Origin: Paracoccus shanxieyensis
GTDB taxonomy: Bacteria; Pseudomonadota; Alphaproteobacteria; Rhodobacterales; Rhodobacteraceae
NCBI RefSeq assembly: GCF_009711265.1
Contig: NZ_WMII01000010.1
Span: 1 to 64,000, forward strand
Direction of reading: 5' to 3'
DNA: 64,000 nucleotides
A model generated the notes under the pieces. That model did no database searches and was not told the DNA's origin. It saw only the letters and a program-made list of their open reading frames with translations. The translations under genes were made by a program, and so were the position numbers. Positions 25,958-56,997 of the stretch are shown piece by piece (position 1 is the stretch's first letter; the number at the start of each line of letters is the position of its first letter).

Positions 25958-26565
25958 GCCTGTCGCCCAATCACGGCGACCGGCGCGGCCAGCGGCCCGA
26001 GCTGATCGTCTTGCACTATACCGGCATGGCGGATGGCGCATCGGCCCGCGCGCGTCTGTGCGATCCCTTGGCCGAGGTCAGCGCGCATTGGTTGATCCAT
26101 GAGGACGGCACCACCGAGGCGCTGGTCCCCGAGGATCGCCGCGCATGGCACGCAGGCGCGGGCGAATGGCGGGGCAGCGGCGACGTGAATTCCCGCAGCA
26201 TCGGCATCGAACTGGTCAATACCGGCGCGCGCCCCTTTCCCGAACCGCAGATGGCCGCACTTGAGGCGTTGCTGCGCCGGATCATGACCCGCTGGGACAT
26301 CGTGCCCGCGGGGGTGATCGCGCATTCCGATATGGCACCTGACCGCAAGATCGATCCCGGCCCGCGATTCGACTGGCGCCGCCTTGCGCTGCAGGGGCTG
26401 GCGATCTGGCCCGAGGGGGGGGATGAGCAGCCCTTGGCGGCCAGTCTGGCGCGGATCGGCTATCCGGCGGGACCGGCGACGCTGGCGGCGTTCCGGCTGC
26501 GCTTTCGGCCATGGGCCGAGGGCCCCGAGGATGCGACGGATCGCATTCTGGCGGCGGGTCTATAG
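25954..26565 (+). CDS. N-acetylmuramoyl-L-alanine amidase, AmpD type
   Basis: A 203-residue amidase_2-domain protein that cuts the bond between MurNAc and L-Ala of muropeptides. LIVLHYTGMADG has the first zinc His, SRSIGIELVNTG is the core strand, and VIAHSDMAPDRKIDPG carries the second His, the catalytic Lys and the last ligand Asp. No signal peptide is seen, so it is probably cytoplasmic, as AmpD. It starts at a GTG whose G/T/G overlaps the stop of the lipoprotein gene; no closer ATG exists. Its stop overlaps the converging rlmJ by six bases. Confidence 0.88.
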   Translation: MSLSPNHGDRRGQRPELIVLHYTGMADGASARARLCDPLAEVSAHWLIHEDGTTEALVPEDRRAWHAGAGEWRGSGDVNSRSIGIELVNTGARPFPEPQMAALEALLRRIMTRWDIVPAGVIAHSDMAPDRKIDPGPRFDWRRLALQGLAIWPEGGDEQPLAASLARIGYPAGPATLAAFRLRFRPWAEGPEDATDRILAAGL

Positions 26566-27336
26566 CCGGGCGAACAGCTTTTCGATGCGACGCGATTCCT
26601 CTTCCAGCCCATAAGGCGGGTTCAGCACGAACATGCCCGAGCCGATCATGCCATGGCCGGGACGGGCCGGGGGGAAGCCGACCTCGGACAGCAGCGCCTG
26701 CGGGTGGGCCTGCCGAAGCGCCTCCAGCATGGGAACATGCCGGGCGTCGGTCAGAAGGGGATACCACAGCGCGATGACGCCGACATTCCATTTGCGCGCG
26801 ATCTGGGCGATCTGGCGCGGGATGGCGTCGTAATCGGCCTTAACCTCATAGCTGGGGTCGATCAGCAGCAGCCCCCGGCGCGGCGTCGGCGGGCAGACCG
26901 CCTGCGCCATGGCAAAGCCGTCCTGCCGGTGCAGATGCGCAAAGCCGCCGACCTGCGCCAGGGCTTCGTGTTCTGTCGGGTGCAGTTCGGCCAGATGGGC
27001 GTTATCCTCGGGGCGCAGGAAATAGCGCGCGATCAGCGGCGAGCCGGGATAGGCATCCGGCCCGTGCATGTGCTGGATCTGGTCCAGCGCCTGCAGCAGC
27101 GGATGATCGGGCGGCAGCCAGTCCTGCTGCAGCGCGCGCTGGATGCCCGCCCGGGCCTCGCCGGTCTTTGCCGCCTCGGGGCCAGACAGGTCGTAAAGCC
27201 CGCGCCCGGCATGGGTTTCCAGATAGCTGAGGGCTTTTGGCTTCTGCGTCAGATAGTCCAGCATCCACGCCAACAGGGCATGCTTGTGGAAATCGGCCAG
27301 ATTCCCGGCGTGATAGGCGTGCTGATAGGACAACAT
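26560..27336 (-). CDS. rlmJ: 23S rRNA (adenine(2030)-N6)-methyltransferase
   Basis: A 258-residue SAM-dependent methyltransferase of the RlmJ family. MLSYQHAYHAGNLADFHKHA is the family start, YLETHAGRGLYDL the SAM-binding part, and GLLLIDPSYEVKADY contains the catalytic DPSY (DPPY-like) motif. NPPYGLEEESRRIEKLF closes it. The predicted target is A2030 of 23S rRNA. It stops six bases inside the amidase gene, and its upstream side faces the end of the CCUCCUCC-loop RNA array on the same strand. Confidence 0.93.
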   Translation of the reverse strand: MLSYQHAYHAGNLADFHKHALLAWMLDYLTQKPKALSYLETHAGRGLYDLSGPEAAKTGEARAGIQRALQQDWLPPDHPLLQALDQIQHMHGPDAYPGSPLIARYFLRPEDNAHLAELHPTEHEALAQVGGFAHLHRQDGFAMAQAVCPPTPRRGLLLIDPSYEVKADYDAIPRQIAQIARKWNVGVIALWYPLLTDARHVPMLEALRQAHPQALLSEVGFPPARPGHGMIGSGMFVLNPPYGLEEESRRIEKLFARL

Positions 27337-27360: not shown

Positions 27361-27406
27361 GAAATGAAAAGCGGCGGTGCCCAGGGAGGAGGAGGGGCAC
27401 CGCCGC
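27361..27406 (-). terminator. terminator at the end of the sRNA array
   Basis: The last hairpin has a perfect 11-bp stem (27371-27381 with 27396-27406) and on the minus strand is followed by TTTTCATTTC. It is the only hairpin of the array with a T-rich tail, so one transcript probably covers all seven units. Confidence 0.8.
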
Positions 27407-27437
27407 GTAACGCCGGCCCAGGGAGGAGGAGGGGCCG
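27371..27437 (-). ncRNA. CcsR-like sRNA unit 7 (last, with terminator)
   Basis: The short hairpin has a loop at 27420-27432 and a 5-bp core stem CGGCC/GGCCG. The long hairpin has a loop at 27383-27395 and an 11-bp perfect stem GCGGCGGTGCC. The long stem is also the terminator. Confidence 0.75.
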
Positions 27438-27447
27438 CGTATGGGAT

Positions 27448-27515
27448 GCGGCGACGGCAGGGAGGAGGAGGCCATCACCGCGTGCGACGACCCAGGGAGG
27501 AGGAGGGGCCGTTGC
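27448..27515 (-). ncRNA. CcsR-like sRNA unit 6 (diverged)
   Basis: The short hairpin loop is at 27494-27506, its 9-position stem has one mismatch and one G-T pair. The long hairpin loop is at 27459-27471 and its stem has two C-A mismatches. It is the most degenerate unit and is set apart by wider spacing (98 and 103 bp to the next unit). Confidence 0.7.
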
Positions 27516-27541
27516 AACCGTTTCGCCTTTTCGGCGTATCT

Positions 27542-27617
27542 GGCGGCGACACCCTCAGGGAGGAGGAGGGAGGGTGCCGCCTGAACTGCGCGCCCTAGGG
27601 AGGAGGAGGGGGCCCGC
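27542..27617 (-). ncRNA. CcsR-like sRNA unit 5
   Basis: The short hairpin loop is at 27597-27609 with an 8-position stem (one mismatch). The long hairpin loop is at 27557-27569, with a 7-bp stem CACCCTC/GAGGGTG, a 3-base bulge and a further 5 bp. Confidence 0.78.
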
Positions 27618-27627
27618 GGTATGGGAT

Positions 27628-27696
27628 GGCGGCTTCCCAGGGAGGAGGAGGGGAAGGCCGCCTTTACTGCGAAGCCCAGGGAGGAGGAGGGGCTTC
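27628..27696 (-). ncRNA. CcsR-like sRNA unit 4
   Basis: The short hairpin has a perfect stem GAAGCC/GGCTTC around the loop at 27678-27690. The long hairpin loop is at 27639-27651 with ten pairs and one bulged G. It is nearly the same as unit 2, with changed stem bases. Confidence 0.8.
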
Positions 27697-27709
27697 ACCG
27701 TATCTGATC

Positions 27710-27782
27710 GGCGGCGACCTCAGGGAGGAGGAGGAGGTCGCCGCCTGAACTGCGTGCCCCAGGGAGGAGGAGGGGGCCCGCG
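27710..27782 (-). ncRNA. CcsR-like sRNA unit 3
   Basis: The long hairpin has a perfect 11-bp stem GGCGGCGACCT/AGGTCGCCGCC around the loop at 27722-27734. The short hairpin loop is at 27761-27773 with an imperfect G/C stem. It is nearly the same as unit 5 in its linkers. Confidence 0.8.
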
Positions 27783-27792
27783 GTGTGAGTGT

Positions 27793-27862
27793 GGCGACCT
27801 TCCCAGGGAGGAGGAGGGGAAGGTCGCCTTTACTGCGAAGCCCAGGGAGGAGGAGGGGCTTC
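27793..27862 (-). ncRNA. CcsR-like sRNA unit 2
   Basis: The short stem is GAAGCC/GGCTTC around the loop at 27844-27856. The long stem, GGCGACCTTCC/GGAAGGTCGCC, is perfect over 11 bp around the loop at 27805-27817. Confidence 0.8.
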
Positions 27863-27875
27863 ACCGTATCTTTGC

Positions 27876-27944
27876 GGCGGCATCCTCAGGGAGGAGGAGG
27901 GAGGATGCCGCCTGAACCCAGACCCCAGGGAGGAGGAGGGGGTC
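27876..27944 (-). ncRNA. CcsR-like sRNA unit 1 (nearest the DUF1127 gene)
   Basis: The short stem GACCC/GGGTC surrounds the loop at 27927-27939. The long stem GGCGGCATCCTC/GAGGATGCCGCC is perfect over 12 bp around the loop at 27888-27900. It begins 14 bases after the DUF1127 stop. Confidence 0.8.
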
Positions 27945-27957
27945 GGGTATTCTATTC

Positions 27958-28170
27958 TTACTTGCCCCAGGCGGCTTCCAAAGCCACCCGGCGGATCATC
28001 GACCGGCTGATGCCCAGATCGGCCAGTTCGCGGCCGTTCAGATCATTCAGTTCGCGAACCGTCTGGCGATAAAGCGCGCGGCGTGCGAAGTGGGTGCGGA
28101 TCTTGCCCATCAGGACCGCAAAACCAGCTTGGTTGCCTGCAGTGCCGTGGTTCAGATCAAGAACAGCCAT
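27958..28170 (-). CDS. ccaF1: DUF1127 small RNA-binding-type protein (CcaF1-like)
   Basis: A 70-residue protein whose C-terminal half has the DUF1127 pattern: RQTVRELNDLNGRELADLGISRSMIRR. In Rhodobacter sphaeroides the DUF1127 protein CcaF1 binds RNA and takes part in maturing the CcsR sRNAs encoded right behind it; the same arrangement here is the reason for the name. The ATG at 28170 starts at MAVLDLNHG; a GTG at 28179 is possible. The array of CCUCCUCC hairpins begins 14 bases after its TAA. A perfect 9-bp inverted repeat lies 68 bases upstream. Confidence 0.85.
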   Translation of the reverse strand: MAVLDLNHGTAGNQAGFAVLMGKIRTHFARRALYRQTVRELNDLNGRELADLGISRSMIRRVALEAAWGK

Positions 28171-28179
28171 TTCATTCAC

Positions 28180-28495
28180 TCTTGCGTCTTTGGTCGTCAG
28201 CTTCGGTCAGCCCGTCGCTTTGTTAGGGCCAACATGCCTATTGTGCTGCGACTGCACAATAGCCGAAGCCGTGATGCTGCCATGCAGAAACCGCATGGCT
28301 TGGTTAAAGCCCGTCACACAAGCGTCTAATTTGGCAGTATTTTTCCGGCTCAACTCGCGTCAGTTTCAACATATCGTTGGCAATCCACGACAAGATGCCT
28401 AGAGTTTCAGGGCTTTAACGAAACCGGGCTTTCCGTGCCTTGCCGAGCCGTCCCGAACTTGACATGCTGCCCGCGCTTCTAAATCGGGGGTAAAG
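28180..28495. other. divergent promoter region of DUF1127/sRNA array and mrp
   Basis: This 316-bp gap between divergent genes holds the inverted repeat at 28238-28262 and a TTGACA at 28459-28464 that could be a -35 for mrp, although no good -10 follows at the usual distance. No gene is seen in it. I could not find a sigma-70 or heat-shock promoter for the DUF1127 transcript by eye. Confidence 0.5.
28238..28262. promoter_or_regulatory. perfect inverted repeat, candidate operator of the sRNA operon
   Basis: CTATTGTGC and GCACAATAG are perfect 9-bp arms around 7 bases. No T-run follows on either strand, so a protein-binding site is likelier than a terminator. It lies 68 bases upstream of the DUF1127 ATG. 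Confidence 0.55.

Positions 28496-55296: not shown

Positions 55297-56997
<1,701 letters not shown>

Follow-up and report, generated by a model that had tools for sequence, protein, structure and literature searches.

In R. sphaeroides, the gene ccaF1 is followed by the small RNAs CcsR1-4, whose loops carry anti-Shine-Dalgarno (aSD) sequences; in the accessible parts of the reports on this operon, it is described as having an RpoHI/RpoHII promoter, as being processed by RNase E and as targeting the mRNA of flhR (PMC10253847, PMC8307010, PMC8625941). The motif CCUCCUCCC has been recognized as an aSD element also in Sinorhizobium meliloti, where the sRNA NfeR1 uses it to block translation of ntrB, according to the sections available of two other studies (PMC3927594, PMC10746234). 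A survey of sRNAs in P. denitrificans (PMC5107571) does not contain the words CcsR, DUF1127, ar14 or Rfam. The portions of this literature that we consulted leave two questions without an answer: Which signal sets the level of such RNA arrays, and why does the number of their loops range from 2 to 26? Here we describe an array for which the RNA family is known, while its possible control by PhaR and its predicted targets among uptake genes may be new.

The array lies on the minus strand of a 64,000-nucleotide stretch of Paracoccus shanxieyensis DNA (contig NZ_WMII01000010.1, positions 1 to 64,000, called the window in the following), between 27954 and 27367. The preliminary description of this DNA had recognized 14 identical loops closed by their own arms, arranged in seven two-hairpin units right behind a DUF1127 gene, and this architecture is borne out, as are the coordinates given for it. 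The 14 loops all read CCTCCTCCTCCCT on the minus strand (14/14), each flanked by its own complementary arms, and their cores span 27938-27384. Directly upstream on the same strand lies a ccaF1-like gene (27958..28170, ATG at 28170) for a 70-aa DUF1127 protein (Pfam PF06568, 50.9 bits vs. a cut-off of 23.3), and the CCTCCTCCC core of loop 1 starts 22 nt past its stop codon. The 11-base core CTCCTCCTCCC has 14 copies in the whole 4.33 Mb assembly, every one of them inside the array. Loop spacings alternate between 39 and 44 nt across the first four units, the complete series being 39, 44, 39, 44, 39, 44, 39, 42, 40, 63, 35, 39 and 37 nt. With unit borders drawn by ourselves, each unit holds two aSD hairpins on the minus strand: unit 1 covers 27872..27954 (cores 27938-27928 and 27899-27889), unit 2 27789..27871 (27855-27845 and 27816-27806), unit 3 27706..27788 (27772-27762 and 27733-27723), unit 4 27623..27705 (27689-27679 and 27650-27640), unit 5 27541..27624 (27608-27598 and 27568-27558), unit 6 27443..27521 (27505-27495 and 27470-27460) and unit 7 27367..27447 (27431-27421 and 27394-27384). 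Units 2 and 4 are 95% identical and units 3 and 5 88% identical, which suggests that the array may have grown via duplication of a two-unit block.

When folded, the minus strand forms 14 separate motif hairpins plus a small one without the motif near 27536-27524; the predicted loops are mostly of 12 nt, with the first C of the loop word paired. The folding z-score is -11.7 for the minus strand vs. -4.7 for the plus strand, and for either strand none of 100 shuffled controls was as stable as the real sequence. Random re-pairing of the arms in the window never attained the true pairing score (0/5000). The stems vary, with 12 distinct 5' arms (10 nt) among the 14 loops, all of which hold CCUCCUCCC. 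TTTT follows the last hairpin (27406-27371), giving a T-run that ends at 27367, and this hairpin is likely to constitute a Rho-independent terminator; a terminator scan gave no match here, but it takes loops of 3-8 nt and five T in eight, and the last loop has 12 nt. About 30 nt past this T-run begins a gene for an RlmJ-type 23S rRNA methyltransferase (Pfam; 26560-27336, minus strand), and read-through from the array could link the two.

A covariance-model scan matched the Rfam family ar14 (cuckoo, RF02344) with 61.6 and 60.2 bits vs. a gathering threshold of 58.8, and a genome-wide search with the same model found four matches, all of them in the array and two above the cut-off (62.9 and 61.6 bits). 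The two matches of the scan lie at 27917-27790 (listed with unit 2) and at 27522-27405 (listed with unit 6), and the genome-wide search placed a match at 27872-27745 across units 2 and 3. The Rfam score, the co-oriented DUF1127 gene upstream and the aSD loops all agree with the CcsR/cuckoo identity previously proposed; the array is thus a hitherto unknown member of the known CcaF1-CcsR/cuckoo RNA family, and we are confident in regarding the locus as of CIN1 type, belonging to the cuckoo (ar14/CcsR) family with its aSD mechanism. Other parts of the preliminary description need to be corrected. The idea that no annotation pipeline would call the array is contradicted by Rfam matches at two places, and the longer loop word is no special feature, given that CT precedes CCTCCTCCC in 448 of the 597 loops from 72 loci and that the Rfam consensus is CUCCUCCUCCC. 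The same applies, in part, to the notion of an expanded form, which stands in comparison with the four units of R. sphaeroides but not within the genus, since 14 hairpins are present also in P. yeei and in P. mutanolyticus, the latter with a nearly identical locus. Comparing unit numbers among Paracoccus, as had been suggested, therefore does not single out this array.

Arrays of this kind are widespread. Of 125 genomes from the genus, 122 contain a pattern of two loops, and so do 297 of 394 genomes drawn from the family, the source genome being included in both counts. A co-oriented DUF1127 gene accompanies the loops at 48 of 60 listed loci of about 3 kb, which were selected by the loop pattern only (30 per search); it lies upstream in 47 and downstream in 1. 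Of the 12 loci without such a match, at least one (L037) contains a DUF1127-like frame overlooked by the search. Scanning named genomes with the CcaF1 protein retrieved 11 loci, 8 of them in Paracoccus, the nearest with up to 74% protein identity. Across the loci that we read, arrays have as few as 2 and as many as 26 loops: 8 in P. sulfuroxidans, 11 in P. limosus, 12 in P. ravus, 14 in P. aestuariivivens and P. litorisediminis, 16 in Mesobaculum littorinae and 26 behind the DUF1127 gene of relative G288 (25 of them scored as hairpins). In the latter locus (L049), a block of three hairpins, about 140 nt long, recurs almost identically among the listed places. Like the source genome, 9 of 124 other genomes of the genus have 12 or more neighbouring loop pairs on a single strand, a count in which several loci may be summed. 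The DUF1127 gene was not detected at six loci of the genus (L008, L017, L022, L029, L030 and L032). The last five of these have 2-7 loops with TTGTGCA 48-51 nt upstream of the first loop core, and they may represent independent cuckoo genes, each driven by its own promoter.

Upstream of ccaF1, aligning 15 loci and later more revealed a CTGCATRGCAGCAT-like block, then TTGTGCANNYGCAGCA 28-29 nt on (start to start) and CATNTT. In our locus this corresponds to a candidate -35 element, TTGTGC (28254-28259, minus strand), within TTGTGCAGTCGCAGCA (28244..28259), and to a candidate -10 element, CATGTT (28231..28236, minus strand), 17 nt past it. TTGTGC is present at 37 of 38 loci of the genus and at 30 of 33 from other genera within the 520 nt leading up to the first loop (L070 left out), and the arrangement TTGTGC-N16-18-CATNTT at 30 of 33 and 9 of 26, respectively. 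In the available text on RpoH promoters of R. sphaeroides, their features are TTG at -36 to -34, A-12 and T-9 (PMC3441632). TTGTGC-N17-CATGTT, a putative promoter, agrees with all three, leaving C-14/T-13 of RpoHII promoters unmatched. A sigma-70 scan gave a single match, on the plus strand and unrelated to the strand of the array.

The first conserved block contains a candidate operator for PhaR: CTGCATGGCAG (28277..28287, minus strand), of the form CTGC-N3-GCAG. In the 300 bp before the gene, this form is present at 29 of 33 loci from the genus, a set that includes one genome twice (L012, L070) and the nearly identical L067 and L068, and at 17 of 26 loci from other genera. It sits at the conserved place in 28 and 15 of these, the hits elsewhere being L027 within the genus and L040 and L052 outside it, vs. 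a background in the rest of the same loci of 0.0074 per kb for the genus and 0 per kb for other genera. It is absent from these 300 bp in 4 of 33 and 9 of 26 loci, among which L049 offered only 149 nt. The palindrome in the window, TTCTGC-ATG-GCAGCA, is one arm base off, and many relatives have TGCTGC-N3-GCAGCA; at the conserved place its spacer is nearly always ATR, stricter than a free spacer would be. As reported in the accessible text of PMC12542648, the PhaR site of R. sphaeroides is CTGCNNNGCAG, two PhaR sites flank the -35 element of phaP1 and phaP2 in S. meliloti, and PhaR binds the promoter of the mmgR sRNA at TTGTGCACCGCAGCATTA. Overlapping our candidate -35 element is another PhaR-like site, with a spacer of 4 nt; its arms are the same as in the PhaR sites of mmgR and SMa1961 in S. 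meliloti, where the spacer is one base shorter. The genome does have a phaR gene (PF07879, 97.2 bits at C5:141936), and about 0.2 kb before this domain match ends a phasin-like gene (approximately C5:141299-141751; 21.2 bits, under the Pfam cut-off of 24.9) with two CTGC-N3-GCAG upstream, one of them with full six-base arms. Elsewhere in the genome, a perfect CTGCATGGCAGCA (L162, C6:54458-54470) marks the 5' end of a reading frame that encodes a sugar ABC binding protein and whose true start is probably further downstream; this gene is possibly another target of PhaR. Because a conserved operator of PhaR type adjoins the -35 element, we propose PhaR as repressor of the array, a tentative assignment drawn from the DNA sequence, which we consider possible rather than probable. 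Judged by titles, none of nine papers on at least two of PhaR, DUF1127, CcsR and NfeR1 makes a link between PhaR and these RNAs; one of them, PMC9230146, mentions both PhaR and DUF1127. The R. sphaeroides operon is presented as controlled by RpoHI/RpoHII, with PhaR unmentioned in the available parts of its reports (PMC10253847, PMC8307010, PMC8625941).

Which messages could such loops reach? The pattern GGGAGGAG-N3-12-ATG has 22 sites in the genome (two of which fall within the array, on its plus strand) vs. 2 for the reversed pattern. Subtracting the two array sites, two further sites in front of genes already counted and three frames under 40 aa leaves 15 frames, of which nine encode transport proteins, vs. 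1 of 17 frames for the control word AAAGGAGA (p = 0.0017); this control had 36 sites, and the 30 listed as loci gave 17 distinct frames of at least 40 aa, the other 13 loci giving none. By Pfam, the nine are two SBP_bac_5, SBP_bac_8, an ABC ATPase, an MFS protein, DctQ, DctP, TctC and a xanthine/uracil permease. Relative G017 shows a similar bias, with transport genes accounting for 11 of 25 target frames vs. 1 of 23 control frames (p = 0.002); its targets come from the 30 loci listed for 38 sites, minus two in the array and three short frames, and its control from 24 sites with one gene counted once. Pfam limits were E 0.001 for our genome, 1e-8 for G017 targets of at least 100 aa and part of the control, and 1e-5 for the rest; an HMA protein (L121) and an outer-membrane barrel (L235) were not scored as transport, and an E1-E2 ATPase (L122) and a Gate protein (L244) were so scored in the controls. 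Since Shine-Dalgarno words matching the loop make good ribosome sites as well, the transporter bias, gauged here by one control word, could simply be a habit of genes of this type, with no sRNA involved; it agrees with the targets predicted for NfeR1 in the accessible part of PMC10746234. Avoidance of the target word across the genome was also considered and was not telling, with 0 copies outside the array vs. about 3 for the reversed word once overlaps with the array were removed.

Four genes, with 85-91% protein identity, have the site in both our genome and G017. One of them encodes a response regulator of LuxR type, which lies behind the end of pqqE and a gene for a quinoprotein-associated SoxYZ-like carrier; it is probably a regulator of C1 or quinoprotein functions and, at a guess, FlhR itself. 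Among its orthologues, 24 of 30 have a 7-mer and 17 of 30 an 8-mer complementary to the loop near the projected start, vs. 2.3% and 1.1% for random 85-nt places, a background that is lenient because start regions are rich in purines. At the three predicted sites that were tried, computed pairing with the loop is stronger than computed pairing with the 16S end (-17.0 to -18.3 vs. -11.9 to -16.3 kcal/mol), whereas it is weaker for the rpsO control (-7.5 vs. -12.7), for ccaF1 (-3.8 vs. -5.1) and for a perfect Shine-Dalgarno (-10.9 vs. -25.1 kcal/mol).

In physiological terms, these elements may be combined as follows. By analogy with R. sphaeroides, ccaF1 and the seven two-hairpin units would form one minus-strand transcript, running from the candidate RpoH-type promoter at about 28259-28231 to the last hairpin, with RNase E processing this transcript and CcaF1 aiding its maturation. 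The CCUCCUCCUCCCU of each loop would then pair with Shine-Dalgarno sequences of GGGAGGAG type and block translation, as shown for S. meliloti NfeR1 and predicted here; likely targets would largely be components of ABC, TRAP and TTT uptake systems, namely permeases and solute-binding proteins, together with the LuxR-type regulator, which is maybe FlhR. Many units would provide a high dose of interchangeable seeds, the number of which presumably shifts by duplication. PhaR might repress the array until polyhydroxybutyrate (PHB) granules capture it, so that full carbon stores would release the array and uptake would be repressed; both the regulator and the direction of its effect are conjectural. 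More generally, the ccaF1-cuckoo arrays of Rhodobacteraceae could form the RNA arm of PhaR regulation: as PHB granules draw PhaR away, aSD sRNAs would cut carbon uptake and a C1 regulator, with hairpin number setting the strength of the response. We advance this general scheme with reserve, as one that may well prove wrong; if true, storage status would govern uptake via cuckoo RNAs, a simple and testable answer to the questions raised at the outset. In S. meliloti, the accessible text of PMC12542648 reports that transport proteins make up 30% of one PhaR-activated module and that the PhaR motif is found at only seven PhaR-activated genes; our proposal could bear on this transport-rich module.

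Other readings of the stretch would dispense with RNA function altogether. Tandem inverted repeats, with units 2/4 and 3/5 so similar, could be taken for palindromic elements acting as DNA, of REP type or engaged in recombination, and an open frame of 183 aa on the plus strand (27364-27915) could be taken for a repetitive protein. The latter is hardly conceivable, for 6 of the 13 loop spacings are not multiples of three, so that the loop falls in different frames, and the pairing of the array RNA appears to be under selection, going by the relatives. In the set of 597 loops, which includes one genome twice (L012, L070) and the nearly identical pair L067/L068, 401 have a stem score of at least 7 with their own arms, compared with 17% for arms randomly swapped; among 521 distinct hairpins, 497 have at least 7 Watson-Crick pairs in the best register of 10. 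G-U in a stem preserves it in the RNA of the array strand, and the opposite strand would have A-C there. The remaining positions of the 497 hairpins comprise 233 G-U, 55 A-C and 409 of other kinds (L068 and L070 omitted), the binomial p of 3e-27 for G-U vs. A-C taking no account of relatedness. From this excess, selection appears to act on the RNA of the minus strand, the same strand as that of the DUF1127 gene. The sign of one-strand RNA selection also speaks against repeats functioning only as DNA, as does the location of every genomic copy of the core in one place behind one gene, and we deem this option extremely unlikely, if a shade less so than the coding one.

The remaining alternatives accept the RNA and differ in its regulator or mode of action. 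The operator could be bound by a LysR-type activator instead of PhaR, and the array would then sense redox or nitrogen in the way NfeR1 does via LsrB, which activates the S. meliloti gene through TGCA-N6-GCAT at -72 to -57 (PMC10746234, in the text available). Both promoter blocks also fit a LysR-type box of TGCA-N5/6-GCAT, and over the 520 nt leading to the array, the N6 form is found at 23 of 38 loci of the genus and 27 of 33 from other genera, the N5 form at 21 and 22 of the same sets, respectively (again without L070). LsrB, however, is reported to be unique to Rhizobiales on a tree of representative species (PMC11975290, as accessible), and the inner CTGC-N3-GCAG recurs twice before the phasin-like gene of the same genome. 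We thus rank a LysR-type regulator second to PhaR and consider it possible but less likely than not. It could also be argued that the array is mainly a sponge, soaking up CcaF1, Hfq or Shine-Dalgarno sequences indiscriminately rather than acting on chosen targets, as the 14 identical seeds in one array, and the 26 in relative G288, each an aSD mimic, would allow. Yet the predicted sites are skewed to uptake genes in two genomes and the seeds of NfeR1 act on specific mRNAs, according to the portion of PMC10746234 at hand, which renders a bulk effect improbable.

Elsewhere in the window, an Rfam 5_ureB_sRNA match (56557-56844, plus strand, 101 bits) is antisense to a minus-strand gene (55297-56997) whose translation reads like the urease subunit UreC, and it probably reflects conserved urease coding sequence. 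Three known systems deserve comparison with the array. MmgR of S. meliloti resembles our array in the promoter site, TTGTGC-N3-GCAGCAT, of a PhaR-repressed sRNA gene, but it tunes phasin synthesis and PHB, with no aSD array mentioned in the text at hand (PMC12542648). The alpha-r14 family RF02344, to which Sinorhizobium NfeR1 belongs, shares CCUCCUCCC loops, variable stems and a score above gathering, and the predicted targets of NfeR1 are likewise mostly ABC transporters; NfeR1 differs in being a three-hairpin sRNA with a sigma-70 promoter under LsrB and NtrC, no DUF1127 leader gene being mentioned in the accessible sections (PMC10746234). Closest is the ccaF1-CcsR1-4 operon of R. sphaeroides (CIN1), which, as far as its reports were available, has the same succession of a DUF1127 gene and aSD units on one strand, and whose RpoH-type promoter features and terminal hairpin find candidate counterparts in our array (PMC10253847, PMC8625941). 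In contrast to the four units of CcsR1-4, for which the same texts mention no PhaR-type operator, the Paracoccus array has seven units, a candidate operator of PhaR type and predicted targets that are largely uptake transporters.
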